Of a DNA stretch of 54,511 nucleotides, positions 5,035-17,505 are shown piece by piece. Within the stretch, counting starts at the first letter, position 1. Each line of letters opens with the position of its first letter. Source of the stretch: a virus; the IMG/VR virus record IMGVR_UViG_3300042475_000999, positions 1-54,511 of that record. One strand, written 5' to 3'. The position numbers and the translations under genes are program-made. A model generated the notes under the pieces. That model was not told where the DNA came from. It did no database searches and worked only from the letters and a program-made list of their open reading frames with translations.

Positions 5035-5243
5035 TGCTTCTTCCACTTCTTGATGGAGATGAACTGCGGCACCTCGATAGGTTGGTCAAGTGCTTCAATG
5101 CCTCTGGCAGACCGCGACCTAAAGTCATACCATTTTTTGACGTAGGCAGGATCCTCGGATGGAGGAACCCAGTTATAAACACGGCGCCATCTTTCGGTGA
5201 CGCAAGTTGATGAAGGTGTATACACAAAATCTTCGGTTGTCAT
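5031..5243 (-). CDS. Hypothetical small basic protein, 70 aa
   Basis: The start ATG overlaps the stop of the upstream gene, and its own stop overlaps the downstream start, so it is linked by ATGA junctions on both sides. It is rich in Trp, Arg and Lys (TERWRRVYNWVPPSEDPAYVK, ending ISIKKWKKQ). The translational coupling supports it being real; no function can be read from the sequence. Confidence 0.55.
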   Translation of the reverse strand: MTTEDFVYTPSSTCVTERWRRVYNWVPPSEDPAYVKKWYDFRSRSARGIEALDQPIEVPQFISIKKWKKQ

Positions 5244-5947
5244 AAGTCTTGTCCTTTAGTTTGTAGCCACATGCGGAGGGTTGACATGCCTCCATCTATT
5301 AAAACATGATTAGGGAATGCTTGGTACTTGTGGTACAGCGGGTGGTTGATGAAGTTCTTCATCAAAAGGTATGCATTAGCTTGTGGCGGTGACATACCCA
5401 TGGCTCTGTCGGTGTCAATACATTTTACCTCGTACCGATCAGAGAATTCTTTGGTGATGGCGTGGACCTGATCACCCAGCAACCCAATGATGACTACCTT
5501 AGGCAATGTCTTGCCAGATGCGCCATACGTTGGATTGTGCTTTTCAATCTTAAACTCATGCTCAAGCTCTTTAACAGCAACTTGCAGGCTTTCACGAAGC
5601 CCCAGAATGAATCGTTGTGTAATAGTATTCACCAACTGCTCAACGAGATCAACTGGTGCATCGATTCTAGGCATCACCAGTGGCGCTGGAGGCATTATTT
5701 CCACAGGTGTGGTAGTTTCCACCACCTTTCGCTTTGGCACATCCTGCATGGCACGTACCTTAAGCTCTTTGATTAAGTCAGGCACTGCAGAATGACTTTG
5801 CATAGTACGACGACGATCAGGTGACAGTACAATTTGCGCTTGCCTAAGCGACGCAATTGGGCTGTAAGTGCCTGAGTTGTAATACTCCACAGCGGTCATG
5901 ATAACTAGATCACGTTCACGTTTTGTCCAGCGAATTTTAGGTAACAT
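5240..5947 (-). CDS. Putative DNA-binding / regulatory protein, 235 aa
   Basis: I place the start at ATG 5947, seven bases after the ribosome site TTGAAAGGAATT; an upstream in-frame TTG is part of that site. Residues 1-60 (IRWTKRERDLVIMTAVEYY, then LSPDRRRTMQS) resemble a Myb/SANT-like W-x-x-x-E helical DNA-binding segment. A Pro-rich linker and helical region follow, then residues 145-235 with an alpha/beta pattern (PKVVIIGLLGDQVHAI, then HVLIDGGMSTLRMWL) reminiscent of DUF2325-like Rossmann folds. It is preceded by its own candidate promoter and a hairpin, unusual inside this operon. The regulatory role is inferred, not shown. Confidence 0.6.
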   Translation of the reverse strand: MLPKIRWTKRERDLVIMTAVEYYNSGTYSPIASLRQAQIVLSPDRRRTMQSHSAVPDLIKELKVRAMQDVPKRKVVETTTPVEIMPPAPLVMPRIDAPVDLVEQLVNTITQRFILGLRESLQVAVKELEHEFKIEKHNPTYGASGKTLPKVVIIGLLGDQVHAITKEFSDRYEVKCIDTDRAMGMSPPQANAYLLMKNFINHPLYHKYQAFPNHVLIDGGMSTLRMWLQTKGQDL

Positions 5948-5950
5948 TTC

Positions 5951-5969
5951 AATTCCTTTCAATAGTCAA
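5951..5969 (-). promoter_or_regulatory. Conserved leader/ribosome site TTGACTATTGAAAGGAATT
   Basis: On the minus strand this sequence precedes ATG 5947. AAAGG lies seven bases from the start and is the Shine-Dalgarno core. The 19-base block is nearly repeated before the genes starting at 9024, 16445 and 17505. Confidence 0.6.
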
Positions 5970-6011: not shown

Positions 6012-6186
6012 CGTCTTTTGTACTTATTACATCTTGCCAAACCATGGCCGAAGCCATTTCCACTTTTAGAGCGGCCAATGCCGTCAGTATGTCCTCCATT
6101 TGATAACCGTCACGAATAAGTTCAAAAACAAATATTCTAAGTTCTTTTTGAACAGCGAATGATAAATCTACACGTTCGATAGCCAT
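6004..6186 (-). CDS. Hypothetical small helical protein, 60 aa
   Basis: The start ATG at 6186 lies 18 bases inside the end of the ThyA-fold gene in another frame, the overlap typical of this operon. The product is mostly helical and acidic (LRIFVFELIRDGYQMEDIL, ALKVEMASAMVWQDV). No domain is recognised. Its position directly after the dCMP-hydroxymethylase candidate makes it a possible accessory protein, which is only positional inference. Confidence 0.5.
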   Translation of the reverse strand: MAIERVDLSFAVQKELRIFVFELIRDGYQMEDILTALAALKVEMASAMVWQDVISTKDVI

Positions 6187-6950
6187 TTTGCAAACTCAAA
6201 AGTAGGGTTGATGGATTTGCCTGCCAAAAGGTTGGCCTCGTACCGGTTGATACGTGGGGGCTTGTCTTCAACTGGCAAATGCAAATTAGCGTTAATGATG
6301 TCATTGAACATGGTCAATCGAGACTCATAGACGTGGAAAGAACCTGCAGATATTGTCAATGTTCCCATCTCAGCGCCAACCAAGTTAGCCACAATTTCCT
6401 GCAGAAAGCTGAAAGTTGGCAAGTCATTTGCCATGCCCCAAAGAATATCTTGGCTACGCATGATAGCTCTGGCGTTCAATCTGCCATTCCTGATTCTGAA
6501 CTCAATGGCCAGCGTGCATGGAACATCCTTTGCCTCTATATCCATATGGTCTATGTCAGTGCCATACATTGGAATCACAGCACGGCGGGACATTGGATCT
6601 TGCGTAAGCAACTTTGCAATATGCAGAGCGCCGTGTTTGCCAAACCAATAACTGCCGTAGTTGCTATTCAACTTGCCGTTGGCTACGATCTTGCCCCACT
6701 GCGCAGCGTGATCAGCAATGCTAAGATCATACGGGTCAGCCTTGATGTACCAAGCCATTTCGCGCTTAAGGTACTTCACATTGAAGTTACGACCTTTGAA
6801 TGAGTTGAACCTTACAAAGGGGTTGACCGTGTAAGTAAAGTTTTCAATCTCAAGGCATTTTTCGCCGCGTGGACTTGTCCAAGTGCCATGCTTTTGCAGC
6901 ACGTTGTAAAGATTGATGAGCTCAGGCTCATTGCGAATCAGCATTTCCAT
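6168..6950 (-). CDS. ThyA-fold pyrimidine (hydroxy)methyltransferase, probable dCMP hydroxymethylase
   Basis: This 260-residue protein has the thymidylate synthase fold signatures. DPMSRR at 118-123 is the phosphate-binding Arg pair. DVPC at 142-145 carries the catalytic Cys145, RSQD at 165-168 follows, and HVY lies at 206-208. The residue corresponding to Asn177 of E. coli ThyA, 31 positions after the catalytic Cys, is Asp176 (WGMAND). Asn there selects dUMP; Asp is the hallmark of dCMP-acting enzymes such as T4 gp42, which has the same 31-residue Cys-Asp spacing. The best reading is a dCMP hydroxymethylase (methylene-THF plus dCMP giving hm-dCMP), not a dTMP synthase. It overlaps the kinase-fusion gene by 23 bases. 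The family call is firm; the substrate call is inferred from one residue and context. Confidence 0.78.
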   Translation of the reverse strand: MEMLIRNEPELINLYNVLQKHGTWTSPRGEKCLEIENFTYTVNPFVRFNSFKGRNFNVKYLKREMAWYIKADPYDLSIADHAAQWGKIVANGKLNSNYGSYWFGKHGALHIAKLLTQDPMSRRAVIPMYGTDIDHMDIEAKDVPCTLAIEFRIRNGRLNARAIMRSQDILWGMANDLPTFSFLQEIVANLVGAEMGTLTISAGSFHVYESRLTMFNDIINANLHLPVEDKPPRINRYEANLLAGKSINPTFEFAKWLSNV

Positions 6951-7869
6951 AATCAGCTTCCGTAATTAAATAGGGTTGGTCGGGGTAATGTTGCATGTGA
7001 TACAAAGGGGGTGGTAATTTAATTACAGGCACTTCATTGTTTAATGCCCATGTGTAGGCATTGTTGCCAAGGGCGTAAATACGTTTTGGCTTCAACTGTT
7101 TGATGAAGCTTGAATCCATAGGTGTGCCTTGGTAAGTTTGAGTGTTAACCCAGTACAAACCAGTTTCAGGTACATTCTCACGCTCCAAGGTTTCAGCCAG
7201 CATTCTGCTAGGGCCATCATTATCCAAGAAGTTAATGAAAGGCACCACGGCTGCGGTGGACTTAACATTTGTGCGAGGCCCCTTGTCGCAAAGCATTAGT
7301 GTATTGCCTTCAACAAAGGCGCCGCCACCGGATGATTTGTTAGTCATTGTCTTGGTTGCAAGCTTAATGAACAACTCTTCTATATCATCTTTGGTATAGT
7401 CGTAGGTGATGACTGGCAGTGAGGTATCCATAGGCAGTGAGGAATAGCCTTCATACACTTGTTCCAATTGTTTGATATTGTCTAAGTACTCATCCTCAAT
7501 GCGATCTTTGAATGTTTGCATACACACTTCAAAATCAGGTTGACAATGAATAACCACAACGCCTCGTGCCAAGGCTGCACGCTCTAACATTCTACGGCGC
7601 GGCATATCAATGCGGTTATCGCCTTTACGATACACGCTGCCATAGATTGGCTCAGACAGCCATGACCTATCCATGATGACGTGGTCATCATAGGTCAACG
7701 CCGCTGTCATGCCGCGAAAATACGTACGGCAAAGGTCCTCGGTATTCATACCACGATAAGGACCATGCTTTACGACATGGGTCATCTTGTCCTTTTGCAA
7801 TCGTTGTCGCAAGGTCTCTGACAGGGTAGTCTTTCCCCCGCCATCAGCCCCTTCTAGAATTACGATCAT
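6928..7869 (-). CDS. dNMP-kinase-like P-loop protein fused to a UDG-like domain, 313 aa
   Basis: Residues 1-170 are a thymidylate-kinase-like P-loop NTPase, with Walker A GADGGGKTT at 7-15, a DRSW motif at 67-70 and a basic lid-like DMPRRRMLERAA. A Ser/Gly-rich linker (174-185) leads to residues 187-302, whose pattern recalls the uracil-DNA glycosylase superfamily: LCDKGPRTN, then PKRIYALGNNAYTWAL, then LPPPLYHMQHYP in the place of the usual HP motif. The kinase part would phosphorylate a deoxynucleoside monophosphate, plausibly the product of the adjacent ThyA-fold enzyme, as T4 gp1 does for hm-dCMP. The role of the C-terminal domain is unknown, and classical catalytic residues are not evident. 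It overlaps both neighbours by more than 20 bases. Confidence 0.7.
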   Translation of the reverse strand: MIVILEGADGGGKTTLSETLRQRLQKDKMTHVVKHGPYRGMNTEDLCRTYFRGMTAALTYDDHVIMDRSWLSEPIYGSVYRKGDNRIDMPRRRMLERAALARGVVVIHCQPDFEVCMQTFKDRIEDEYLDNIKQLEQVYEGYSSLPMDTSLPVITYDYTKDDIEELFIKLATKTMTNKSSGGGAFVEGNTLMLCDKGPRTNVKSTAAVVPFINFLDNDGPSRMLAETLERENVPETGLYWVNTQTYQGTPMDSSFIKQLKPKRIYALGNNAYTWALNNEVPVIKLPPPLYHMQHYPDQPYLITEADYGNADSQ

Positions 7870-8755
7870 TTAAGATACCCTCAAGTTTTGATAGTGTGTC
7901 TTCAAGCGACGCGGTGCGCAAGTAAGTTGCCTGCTGCGCTGCAGTCAGTTGAAGTTGGTAATCATCCATGCTTTCTAATTCATGGAGTGTGTAATCATAC
8001 GATGGATCAATGACGCCAAGCTCTTTGGGGTCGCCACCAAGAACGCAGCCGGCATGCGCTGCGTGTAAATAACGAATACGCCACCAGCCGCAGCCTGCAT
8101 GCTTATACGTAGGGCAAAGAACGCCTTTATAACTGCCATACTGCCAAACAACATCGGACTCAAGGATTCTAGGCTGACCTAGTGCCTTGCCACCTACACT
8201 ATGTATAGGCCATGCAAGGTGCTGTGCCGTAGCCCAATCATGCGCCTCCTTTGAAAGGGATGCGTTGTACCACTCGGTTTTGCGACGATCCCAAGACATT
8301 TGATGCACAGCAGGCATTTCATACAGCGGGCTTGGATCCCATGCAATAATGTCTTCTACTGGCAAGCCCATGGCCTTGGTGCTGCCCCATGGAAATAATG
8401 GCGCAATCCATGTATGCTCACACAACGACTCGGGTGCAATCTTACTTTCCCATGATGGTAGGATCTTTTGGAAAGCCCAATCATCAAGGCAAACATAAGC
8501 ATCAAAGCGGCTTTCTAAGGCCCACAAGGCACCCTCGGGATCCAAAGCATTGTGATCCAAGGGGTATAGGTACACAAACACTTTGTCGTAACGGGTGAGG
8601 TCTTCACCTGATGTAACGGCACGATGATCAACATGATGCCCCATACGGCCAAAGGCTGATGCCATCAATTCAGGAATGGAAACAAACTTGGTTGAACTGG
8701 CACGCTGCGGATGGTTGGTATGCGTCTCTGTAACGCCGGTAATTAAGATATTCAT
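7844..8755 (-). CDS. Putative GT-B-like glycosyltransferase (candidate DNA base glycosyltransferase), 303 aa
   Basis: The N-terminus MNILITGV and the alternating strands/helices to residue 95 (YDKVFVYLYPL, FDAYVCLDDWAF) look Rossmann-like, with D91/D92 placed where GT-B enzymes such as T4 beta-glucosyltransferase keep the catalytic Asp. The second half has YKGVLCPTYKHAGCGWWRIR, then AHAGCVLGGDPKELG. That order matches the GT-B donor-site pattern of a conserved Arg followed by a small-residue helix and a hydrophobic strand, but the usual ribose-binding Glu is replaced by His. The start ATG overlaps the previous stop (ATGA). Neighbouring genes for a dCMP-hydroxymethylase candidate and a kinase suggest modification of hydroxymethylcytosine. 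Family assignment is by pattern only. Confidence 0.5.
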   Translation of the reverse strand: MNILITGVTETHTNHPQRASSTKFVSIPELMASAFGRMGHHVDHRAVTSGEDLTRYDKVFVYLYPLDHNALDPEGALWALESRFDAYVCLDDWAFQKILPSWESKIAPESLCEHTWIAPLFPWGSTKAMGLPVEDIIAWDPSPLYEMPAVHQMSWDRRKTEWYNASLSKEAHDWATAQHLAWPIHSVGGKALGQPRILESDVVWQYGSYKGVLCPTYKHAGCGWWRIRYLHAAHAGCVLGGDPKELGVIDPSYDYTLHELESMDDYQLQLTAAQQATYLRTASLEDTLSKLEGILNDRNSRRG

Positions 8756-9024
8756 GGCAATGCAAGCGTGATGTAGCCCTCAGCAGCATCGTGATTCACA
8801 TCACCTGATCTGCCACCTGCTTGGATGTATTCAGCAACTGTCATGCCAGTGCGGTACAAAGCAAAACGTTCACGTGACAACGTGTTGTTACGCTTTGGGT
8901 TGGTTTCTGCAACCAAAGTAATGATTGCTTTTTTGTTTGCACGGGCGCGTAGCTTTGCTTCTGACATGTCAGTATCTTCCTGTTGGATGGGGTTAGGTCT
9001 TTCGACAATAGGCGTAAATTGCAT
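8752..9024 (-). CDS. Conserved phage hypothetical protein, 90 aa
   Basis: I set the start at ATG 9024, seven bases after the leader TTGAAAGGAATT; an in-frame TTG upstream is part of that ribosome site. After a polar N-terminus the sequence runs NPKRNNTLSRERFALYRTGMTVAEYIQAGG, then DVNHDAAEGYITL (shown in pieces, positions about 42-88). The order NPKR, R-RF-Y--GMTV-EY, GG recurs in phage small proteins of unknown function and suggests a helical DNA-binding or dimerisation unit. It is the first gene of the modification cluster and is coupled to the glycosyltransferase candidate. Confidence 0.55.
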   Translation of the reverse strand: MQFTPIVERPNPIQQEDTDMSEAKLRARANKKAIITLVAETNPKRNNTLSRERFALYRTGMTVAEYIQAGGRSGDVNHDAAEGYITLALP

Positions 9025-9027
9025 ATA

Positions 9028-9046
9028 AATTCCTTTCAATGGTCAA
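9028..9046 (-). promoter_or_regulatory. Conserved leader/ribosome site TTGACCATTGAAAGGAATT
   Basis: This is the second copy of the 19-base leader block. The TGA inside it is also the helicase stop codon. The AAAGG core is seven bases before ATG 9024. Confidence 0.6.
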
Positions 9047-14721: not shown

Positions 14722-15087
14722 TTATTTACGACGAACGGTAAGTTCCCAGACCTCAGATGCTTCGGTCCCGGGGATGGCCTCACCAGCTTCCCACCGCTCA
14801 CGGAAGGCTGTTGAGGAAAGCCGCTTATGCAGCAATTCAAATTGGCTTGTCTGTGCGACATAGCCGTAAAAAGCTTGCCAATCTTTGATGGCAGGGTGCT
14901 TGGTCATTTTCATAGAGCATGATGCTTTATCAGATGCAGCTTGGCTAATGCCTGCATCAGACATAAGTGCCATGATGTCACCTTCAAGGCGACCAAGTTT
15001 GGCCGTCATGTCTTTGATTTTAGATGAGAGCTCTTCACGCTCGTTCTTGGTTGCGACGTAATCGTCGATCAATTCTTTAATGTTCAT
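14722..15087 (-). CDS. Conserved phage coiled-coil protein, 121 aa
   Basis: ATG 15087 overlaps the stop of the MazG-like gene (ATGA), so I prefer it to a longer version. Residues 1-50 are a charged coiled coil (YVATKNEREELSSKIKDMTA, LGRLEGDIMALM). Residues 65-121 contain DWQAFYGYVAQTSQFELLHK, then AFRERWEAGEAIPG and a final strand VWELTVRRK. This W-x-x-FY-YV...F-LLH-R...RERWE-G--IPG order recurs in replication regions of podoviruses. Its role is unknown; a structural partner of the replication proteins is plausible. Confidence 0.6.
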   Translation of the reverse strand: MNIKELIDDYVATKNEREELSSKIKDMTAKLGRLEGDIMALMSDAGISQAASDKASCSMKMTKHPAIKDWQAFYGYVAQTSQFELLHKRLSSTAFRERWEAGEAIPGTEASEVWELTVRRK

Positions 15088-15491
15088 GACTTTGCTTTCT
15101 GCTGTTCTGTTTGTATGATGGCCAACATCATGGCCTCGGGGGCTTGCCAACCCATAGGTTTGATAACGTCGTATTGTGAGCCGCGCAACGATCTGATGTA
15201 GTCATTAGCTGGTTCTTTGTTCATGTTGGCTTCGTGCACCACATTAAAAAGCTGGTCAAACGGCAACCCCATAGCATGTGCACAGCCCATGGTAACGTAG
15301 GTAAGATCAACCAAAGCATCAGCGGCGTCGACAAGGCTATTCTCCTCGCAAGCACGAAGGTATTCACTAAGCTCTTCCATGATGAAGCGAGCAAAGTAAC
15401 TGGCTTGCTCGGATGTAAGCAAGGTAGGTGTGGTGGAGACTGGCAGACCCATCTTGCGACGGAAGGCCAGTACTTTTTCTGAATTAGTCAT
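15084..15491 (-). CDS. MazG-like / all-alpha NTP pyrophosphohydrolase, 135 aa
   Basis: I favour ATG 15491 (MTNSEKVLAFRRKMG), which overlaps the previous stop by eight bases; longer in-frame starts enter the upstream gene. The fold signature is an EELSEYLRA helix (E-E-x-x-E) followed by DAADALVDLTYVTMGCAHAM, giving the D-x-x-x-D metal site, then FDQLFNVVHEANMNK. Members of this superfamily hydrolyse NTPs or dNTPs to monophosphates, and the superfamily includes dCTP pyrophosphatases. In a phage with a possible hm-dCMP pathway it could deplete dCTP and supply dCMP. That specific role is inference; general house-cleaning or (p)ppGpp effects are alternatives. Confidence 0.82.
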   Translation of the reverse strand: MTNSEKVLAFRRKMGLPVSTTPTLLTSEQASYFARFIMEELSEYLRACEENSLVDAADALVDLTYVTMGCAHAMGLPFDQLFNVVHEANMNKEPANDYIRSLRGSQYDVIKPMGWQAPEAMMLAIIQTEQQKAKS

Positions 15492-15936
15492 ATGCATAAT
15501 CATTTGCTGTTGTAGTACGTGCGGCGCATTCTTTGTACATAAGTGATTCAAATGCATTGCGGTTAGCTGGGTTAAGTGTTGCTGTAATGTCTTTGCCATC
15601 CATCAACACAACGTAATCAAAGCCAAGGCGCTTTACGCTATACAACACAACAATGTCGCGTTCAATGTCGCCATCACCCCACTCGGCTTGCCAATTGTCT
15701 AAGCCATAGTGATCTAAAGAGTATTCGTATTCATCTGGCATGGTAGGTTTTGGTGTTGTGTAGATGACGTATGCACTAAGATGGCCAAGAGCGCGTGCTG
15801 CTGCCATGCGCAATTCTAATTGCTCTTTGTATGATGCCAAGGCTGTAGCATCAGCAGGTACATTAAGAACAAAAGCCTCAATGCCTTGGTAAATTTCCTG
15901 CAGCTCGGTAAGAGGGATGCTTACAGTTTTAGTCAT
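15484..15936 (-). CDS. Hypothetical protein, 150 aa
   Basis: ATG 15936 overlaps the upstream stop (ATGA) and has GGAGG seven bases before it, which decides against the longer in-frame start. It has an N-terminal helical part (LTELQEIYQGIEAF, SYKEQLELRMAAARALGHL) and a C-terminal acidic, aromatic part (DEYEYSLDHYGLDNWQAEW, DIERDIVVLYSVKRLGFDYV). No motif is recognised. Confidence 0.6.
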   Translation of the reverse strand: MTKTVSIPLTELQEIYQGIEAFVLNVPADATALASYKEQLELRMAAARALGHLSAYVIYTTPKPTMPDEYEYSLDHYGLDNWQAEWGDGDIERDIVVLYSVKRLGFDYVVLMDGKDITATLNPANRNAFESLMYKECAARTTTANDYAYD

Positions 15937-16542: not shown

Positions 16543-17505
16543 TTATGACAATGCCAAAAGGGCGTCAACCGTTTGTTGCTTAACATTGACACCGCCGCCG
16601 AACCATGCGTTGGCCAACCGAGCATCGCCGGTGCGAGCTGTTTCCCAATCCATCAGCTGAGTCACGGCATTCAAAGCGCCCCATGCCGTGCCTTTGGCAG
16701 ACTCTAACTCAGCGCCGATGCCTGCACCTTCGAAGAGAGCCAATGCTCTGGCTGCTGCGCGTGAGGGATTCTTTTCATCGCCGCCAAGGATCTTGGTGAA
16801 GATGGCCTGTGCCTGTGTAGAGCCAACCTTGATGGAAGCCAAGAACTTGGCCGTTTGCTCGAACACACGGAATGTTTCGTTGCTGTTGGCCAACTCGGCC
16901 TTGATGGCCTCGGGGCGGAAGATGGAGTTATGACGAACGCTGACGTTGGCCTTGCCTTTTTGCTGTGCCAACTGCAAAGTGTTATTACATACAACACGGA
17001 CGCTGGTAAGGCGTGCCTGAGTGGCCAGAGAGCCATCAGCGGAGCTGGCCAATAAGAGATATTGGTTAACCTTATCGCCTGCAATGTTGAACTCGCCATC
17101 CATCTTGGCGAGGGCCCAGTAATGAGCGCCATTACGCAGGACGCCGGCTGTTTCAAGGTGAGCAATATTGCCAACCATGTCGCGGAAGAATTCGAGGACC
17201 TCGATCGGCTGCACGATCTTGTACTGGCTAGACACCAAGCCGAGTGGCAAGTTGCTGTCTGTGCGGTACATTACTTTCTTGCCGTCGTAAGGCAAGGACT
17301 GCGCCTTGAAGCCGTTCCACACGCTGGCTGGAGGAGTGAACTGGACATCGGCGGTAGCCAATTGGAAGTCAAGGCCAGATTCCTCGGCCCATGTTTCAAT
17401 GGTTGAGTCAGCAGTTAACTGCTGGCCAAGACCGTGCCAAGGAGTTTCACCAACGTAAGCCATTGCTGCCTTGCCGGAGATTGTGTTTGCGATTAAGTGT
17501 GCCAT
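16543..17505 (-). CDS. DUF932 / phage-plasmid-like protein (TIGR03299-type), 320 aa
   Basis: This is the first gene of the leftward operon and has the conserved TTGAAAGG ribosome site eight bases before ATG 17505. Family signatures include ETPWHGLGQQL at 20-30, DSNLPLGLVSSQYKIVQP near 83-100, and RLTSVRVVCNNTLQLA near 165-180. DUF932 proteins are widespread in phages and plasmids and usually lie early, but their biochemical role is not established; an anti-defence or replication-accessory role has been suggested only by context. Here it has its own promoter region and a downstream hairpin, so it may be the most abundant early protein. Confidence 0.88.
   Translation of the reverse strand: MAHLIANTISGKAAMAYVGETPWHGLGQQLTADSTIETWAEESGLDFQLATADVQFTPPASVWNGFKAQSLPYDGKKVMYRTDSNLPLGLVSSQYKIVQPIEVLEFFRDMVGNIAHLETAGVLRNGAHYWALAKMDGEFNIAGDKVNQYLLLASSADGSLATQARLTSVRVVCNNTLQLAQQKGKANVSVRHNSIFRPEAIKAELANSNETFRVFEQTAKFLASIKVGSTQAQAIFTKILGGDEKNPSRAAARALALFEGAGIGAELESAKGTAWGALNAVTQLMDWETARTGDARLANAWFGGGVNVKQQTVDALLALS

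Follow-up and report, generated by a model that had tools for sequence, protein, structure and literature searches.

A conserved three-gene viral cassette predicted to make glycosylated 5-hydroxymethylcytosine

Phage DNA with hypermodified cytosine is protected against restriction and against many CRISPR nucleases, and the enzymes that install the modification serve as useful reagents. The T4 pathway to glucosyl-5-hydroxymethylcytosine (glucosyl-5hmC) uses the dCMP hydroxymethylase gp42, the kinase gp1, the dCTPase gp56 and the alpha- and beta-glucosyltransferases. Phage Xp15 and the phages of the MetaGPA study carry 5-carbamoyloxymethylcytosine; in that study, positions 147 and 177 ranked first and second in telling thymidylate synthase (TS)-fold proteins on contigs with modified cytosine apart from all others, Asp being the residue at 177, and 5hmC was carbamoylated in vitro by a carbamoyltransferase whose gene shared a modified contig with a TS-fold gene (PMC8670742). 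RB69 and NP make arabinosyl-cytosine through 5-hydroxycytosine (PMC6024577, PMC13390438). In Stenotrophomonas phage AXL3, only 2 of 37 enzymes cut the DNA, both at A/T-only sites, and every tested enzyme with G or C in its site was resisted (PMC7504290). The locus described here lies in IMG/VR record IMGVR_UViG_3300042475_000999, from an uncultured virus, and the whole 54,511-nucleotide (54.5 kb) record, referred to as the window, was analysed. Its three open reading frames (ORFs) encode a glycosyltransferase (GT), a kinase with an additional C-terminal domain (KIN) and a ThyA-fold enzyme (TS), and appear to form a further pathway of this kind.

The GT-KIN-TS cassette and its proposed product

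The three genes lie on the minus strand, are transcribed in the order GT, KIN, TS, and overlap by 23 and 26 bases (Table 1); an earlier note made from the sequence alone had already described them as overlapping. The same contiguous order occurs in all 64 distinct viral contigs that bear TS and have at least 2 kb of upstream sequence, and likewise in 192 of 192 loci, a set that is redundant at the contig level. Wherever dS was computable, dN/dS was about 0.05-0.09 for each of the three genes; the values come from an experimental Biopython module and most pairs were saturated. GT, KIN and TS are under purifying selection, and because of this and the invariable contiguity the cassette is not a chance arrangement. 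The preferred reading, with a probability of about 0.78, is that the cassette makes glycosylated 5hmC in the phage genome. It is supported by catalytic residues, phylogeny, fold and genome context. The virion DNA of this phage would then contain modified cytosine, which would shield it from bacterial defences.

TS matches Pfam PF00303 at 5e-18, and its best solved relatives are MilA, a CMP 5-hydroxymethylase, and the T4 dCMP hydroxymethylase gp42. Cys145, Thr146 and Asp176 align with C146, H147 and N177 of E. coli ThyA and are kept in 70 of 71 relatives, the remaining row being truncated; the ThyA fold with an Asp signature, as first read, is borne out. In the Asp176 column wild-type T4 has D, and the 6l18 sequence and a bacterial thymidylate synthase have N. 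The NSNYG, PCT and ND motifs, the last in a G-x-x-ND loop, are common to TS and gp42. Maximum-likelihood phylogeny places the window clade with the enzymes of Xp15, MD-2021a and HHU4 (support 96/95); this Xp15-type clade is supported, and the deeper branch order is not settled. Xp15 and MD-2021a encode a NodU-type carbamoyltransferase in the same cluster as the TS-fold enzyme. Because of the signature residues, the placement in the Xp15-type clade and the action of such carbamoyltransferases on 5hmC, the product of TS is most probably 5-hydroxymethyl-dCMP, with a presumed specificity for dCMP.

Four steps are proposed. A MazG-like enzyme encoded upstream would lower dCTP and yield dCMP, which TS would turn into 5-hydroxymethyl-dCMP, the step strongly supported by residues and phylogeny. 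KIN, to judge from its family and operon, may phosphorylate this product to the diphosphate, after which a host kinase would form the triphosphate and the phage polymerase would incorporate it. Finally GT, given its fold and its co-occurrence with such enzymes across phage lineages, would attach a sugar at the 5-hydroxymethyl group, with DNA as the most likely substrate.

Table 1. Features of the cassette and of the MazG-like gene in the window
Feature	Positions	Strand	Basis
TS: ThyA-fold enzyme, predicted dCMP 5-hydroxymethylase, 260 aa	6168..6950	-	PF00303, solved relatives, motifs, tree
Codon of Asp176 (E. coli N177, T4 D179), cytosine-specificity residue	6423..6425	-	Alignments
Codons of catalytic Cys145 and Thr146	6513..6518	-	Alignment, 70/71 rows
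KIN: TMPK-type (d)NMP kinase with C-terminal UDG-like domain, 313 aa, predicted 5hm-dCMP kinase	6928..7869	-	PF02223, AF2, Foldseek
KIN C-terminal domain, residues 174-313, remote UDG-superfamily likeness	6931..7350	-	PF03167, weak PDB matches, alignment
P-loop GADGGGKT, KIN residues 7-14	7828..7851	-	Sequence; kept in relatives' alignment
GT: GT-B glycosyltransferase, 303 aa, predicted 5hmC-DNA glycosyltransferase	7844..8755	-	AF2, fold matches, viral GT relatives, Asp-177 co-occurrence
Family signature HAGCGWWRIR, GT residues 219-228; within WWRxR the second Trp and the two Arg are the same in all 13 homologues	8072..8101	-	
DDW motif, GT residues 91-93	8477..8485	-	Family alignment
MazG-like / PRA-PH NTP pyrophosphohydrolase, 171 aa, candidate dCTPase	15084..15599	-	PF01503 2.8e-17, phrog_671
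TMPK, thymidylate kinase; (d)NMP, (deoxy)nucleoside monophosphate; UDG, uracil-DNA glycosylase; AF2, AlphaFold2; NTP, nucleoside triphosphate.

The kinase, its tail and the upstream cluster

The kinase domain of KIN (residues 1-173) matches PF02223 at 1.5e-8. The AF2 model has a predicted local distance difference test (pLDDT) score of 86, and its nearest Foldseek matches are YorR and thymidylate kinases. By P-loop and modelled fold the N-terminal part is a TMPK-type kinase, in line with its first description as dNMP-kinase-like, and family and operon together predict 5hm-dCMP as the substrate. In the L255-type contigs the kinase stands alone, with about 200 aa, and adjoins a gp42-like enzyme. 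RB69 has a gene annotated as thymidylate kinase near its 5-hydroxy-dCMP synthase homologue (L277:4048-6214), suggesting that TMPK-type kinases recur in modified-cytosine modules.

The tail of KIN had been described as UDG-like. A second domain with remote UDG likeness is present: PF03167 matches the tail in 17 of 27 members (best E 0.0016, the window member falling below the curated cut-off), and most of the weak PDB matches of a tail profile built with diverse homologues are type-4 UDGs (E 0.4-2). The UDG-like motifs fall in a sensible register in the tail homologues (VG[ED] ... PF ... N ... LG..A ... HPQ). What does not carry over is motif III, where the whole window clade has lost the His-Pro and has PPPL[YH] in its place. 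The UDG assignment is thus remote and weakly supported. An active glycosylase, one that excises uracil or unmodified cytosine, for instance, from the DNA of phage or host, would fit the remote UDG similarity and the His-Pro kept by the homologues in AXL3, PW916, ctUtU524 and DSL-LC01, but it is unlikely in view of the loss of His-Pro from every window-clade member and of the negative comparison with E. coli Mug, which did not match the tail profile. In the window clade the tail is most likely, though with low confidence, a base- or DNA-binding module that lacks glycosylase activity. The tails of AXL3, PW916, ctUtU524 and DSL-LC01, with their HPQ motif intact, could be catalytic in those phages.

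In the same four phages the two-domain KIN homologue adjoins an Asp-177 enzyme, so the fusion is not unique to this phage; the earlier note had pointed out that T4 lacks it. A scan with the AXL3 kinase protein returned one relative. The window clade and AXL3 together pose the question of what purpose a glycosylase-like tail serves on a kinase.

The MazG-like gene had been placed upstream in the same operon. Its family assignment holds, and it lies on the same strand and in the same cluster, but about 6.3 kb upstream of the GT start and not adjacent. All 10 related near-genome contigs encode a member of this family, and in AXL3, PW916 and ctUtU524 it adjoins the kinase-TS pair. The protein is a candidate dCTPase, by analogy with the role of T4 gp56. 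Also upstream of the cassette on the same strand are genes for a helicase, PD-(D/E)XK-type nucleases and DNA polymerase A.

Several neighbouring genes were recorded in addition. The same cluster is headed by a DUF932 protein (16543-17505; PF06067, 7e-51), and the ctUtU524 cluster also has a protein with the TIGR03299 (phage/plasmid-like) annotation. The cassette is flanked by genes at 5240-5962 (240 aa) and 8752-9039 (95 aa), whose products are kept in relatives and have no family match; these could be further parts of the module. At the start of the window, an ORF containing a long stretch of TPAV repeats (3-1115) adjoins other plus-strand ORFs.

The glycosyltransferase family and its possible sugars

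GT has no match in Pfam, NCBIfam or PDB sequences, and neither the protein nor its profile gave anything meaningful against solved structures; it matches phrog_14998, a PHROG without known function. The AF2 model (pLDDT 86) has SenB, a GT4 enzyme and BshA as its top solved fold matches in Foldseek, with template modelling (TM) scores of about 0.5-0.6, and its viral fold matches are phage homologues and CgeB-like glycosyltransferases. On this model GT has a GT-B fold with two Rossmann-like domains, which agrees with the first description of the 303-aa protein as GT-B-like. It is predicted to add a sugar to 5hmC in DNA. An alignment of 13 diverse phage homologues, which share 22-39% identity with its first row, has 11 invariant columns; residues of DDW and WWRxR are among them.

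The GT family occurs at about 500 sites among the collected viral contigs and is nearly virus-restricted, with one relative among 84,980 bacterial and archaeal genomes. The contig of that relative encodes a dCMP hydroxymethylase, a dCMP deaminase, GT and a uridine diphosphate (UDP)-galactopyranose mutase in a row. A bacterial origin of GT was considered and rejected, since this sole relative is matched 100% by a viral contig.

An Asp-177 TS-fold enzyme is encoded in 9 of the 10 annotated phage records that carry a GT homologue. Several of these records are T4-like and not independent; separate lineages are represented by the Gordonia phages, which span three genera, by DSL-LC01 and by ctIqW946. 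Aeromonas phage AS-gz and Gordonia phage BlueNGold are examples of cultured phages that carry the GT family. In one branch of the family (L240), a gp42-like enzyme lies within 10 kb of GT in 30 of 34 loci.

Some points weigh against a role for GT on DNA and against the pathway as a whole. The fold matches fit GT-B enzymes in general and are silent on DNA as the acceptor. The comparison of GT with T4 beta-GT gave a P of 0.0027 and a probability of 11% in hhalign, over only 43 N-terminal columns, a weak similarity. RB69 ORF003c was tried as a GT homologue and found unsupported in the comparison, and a second search, which had no positive control, was empty too. The specificities of the kinase and of the MazG-like protein are predictions. 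Finally, C48C1 encodes GT and the mutase and has no TS-fold gene, so the GT family is not strictly tied to hydroxymethylation. In this member of the Kyanoviridae (L144 9001-11033) GT adjoins the UDP-galactopyranose mutase.

It could be, then, that TS hydroxymethylates cytosine and that GT acts on a virion protein, a host surface glycan or a nucleotide instead of DNA, as the generic fold and the C48C1 arrangement would allow. This is improbable given the contiguity with the dCMP enzyme in all 64 contigs of the window clade, the gp42-like enzymes near GT in the L240 branch, and the Asp-177 enzymes that accompany GT in several separate lineages. The simplest reading is that the GT family consists of DNA glycosyltransferases for 5hmC (or 5-hydroxycytosine), with furanose donors in some branches.

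The sugar may differ between branches. Of the 10 GT-bearing phage records, 5 encode UDP-galactopyranose mutase, which directly neighbours GT in FBB1, AS-gz and DSL-LC01. In the L240 branch the mutase begins within 15 bases after GT in 34 of 34 loci, and because of this coupling by gene order a furanose donor is the leading guess; this branch probably makes galactofuranosyl-5hmC. A phage operon with dCMP hydroxymethylase, dCMP deaminase, GT and UDP-galactopyranose mutase (L240:6144-10090 and L241-L274) predicts DNA with this base. No mutase was found in the window clade (13 related contigs), and no sugar-nucleotide gene was found in this phage, so the donor in the window clade is presumably a nucleotide sugar supplied by the host. 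The broader proposal remains tentative, somewhat short of an even chance: a nearly virus-restricted family of 5hmC DNA glycosyltransferases, distinct from both T4 beta-GT and RB69 ORF003c, with galactofuranosyl-5hmC in virions of the mutase-coupled branch and another, host-supplied sugar in the window clade.

If this is true, galactofuranosyl-5hmC would be a DNA base for which no report was found in the open literature, most subscription papers lying outside the search. The link to the mutase would also change how a phage gene is read. It is usually assigned to cell-wall metabolism, as in Atu_ph04, whose mutase has been described solely in connection with the cell wall (PMC6630229), and here it would predict a furanose sugar on DNA.

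The predicted base and comparison with known systems

The base could also be 5-hydroxycytosine, as in the arabinosyl-cytosine phages, in place of 5hmC. The RB69-type 5-hydroxy-dCMP synthase is likewise a thymidylate synthase homologue with Asp at the same site (PMC13390438), and the GT homologue of Providencia phage PSTRCR_127 sits in an RB69-like arabinose cluster. However, the RB69 and PSTRCR enzymes form a separate clade of their own (100/100) with NTFYG and a rewritten Asp loop, whereas the window TS has the NSNYG and G-x-x-ND loop seen in T4 gp42 and falls with the Xp15 clade, making this alternative very unlikely. The dUMP hydroxymethylase of SPO1, with Asn177 and Cys-Asn, also falls outside the window TS clade, as does ThyA. 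Least likely is that TS methylates dCMP, giving the 5-methylcytosine known from XP12, or is an ordinary thymidylate synthase acting on dUMP, with neighbours unrelated to base modification: Asp alone is no proof of hydroxymethylation, because the published N177D change switches ThyA to dCMP methylation (PMC8670742), but the closest kin of TS are Xp15-type enzymes, whose partner carbamoyltransferases require a hydroxyl group as acceptor, GT is always in the same contiguous cassette, and canonical ThyA rows have Cys-His and Asn at these positions.

With 5hmC as the preferred base, the cassette follows the logic of the T4 pathway, combining an Asp-site dCMP hydroxymethylase, an NMP kinase, an NTP pyrophosphohydrolase and a GT-B enzyme. 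The earlier proposal of a T4-like pathway is supported for hydroxymethylation, kinase, sugar transfer and pyrophosphohydrolase; the sugar need not be glucose. The proteins are not close to those of T4, as had been noted: gp42 is 26.6% identical to the window TS and belongs to a different clade, the window kinase is of TMPK type with an extra domain, a MazG/PRA-PH protein stands where T4 has gp56, and the resemblance of GT to beta-GT is at most weak and N-terminal.

The dCMP hydroxymethylases closest to TS, at 33-39% identity, are those of Xp15 and the MetaGPA phages. Xp15 has a PRA-PH-type homologue, as the window does, and the genes for DNA polymerase, nuclease, helicase and modification come in a similar order. 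Those phages carry a carbamoyltransferase and a dCMP deaminase, whereas the window has a glycosyltransferase and the kinase-UDG fusion, and no dCMP deaminase was found in it or in 13 related contigs. AXL3 and Pseudoxanthomonas phage PW916 resemble the window in having a full-length kinase-UDG-like homologue beside an Asp-177 enzyme and MazG. They differ in the clade of the hydroxymethylase and in having a dCMP deaminase and a methyltransferase, and no homologue of the window GT was found in them.

The RB69/NP pathway also pairs a TS-fold enzyme with a sugar transferase, and PSTRCR_127 connects the GT family to an arabinose cluster. It differs in its 5-hydroxy-dCMP synthase and in its transferase ORF003c, which has no detectable kinship to the window GT, and no arabinose genes were found in the window. 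The kind of pathway is thus already known from T4 and the 5-carbamoyloxymethylcytosine phages; the window has a predicted, independent version of it, which the combination of genes, the GT family and the kinase tail make new as far as the open literature searched shows.

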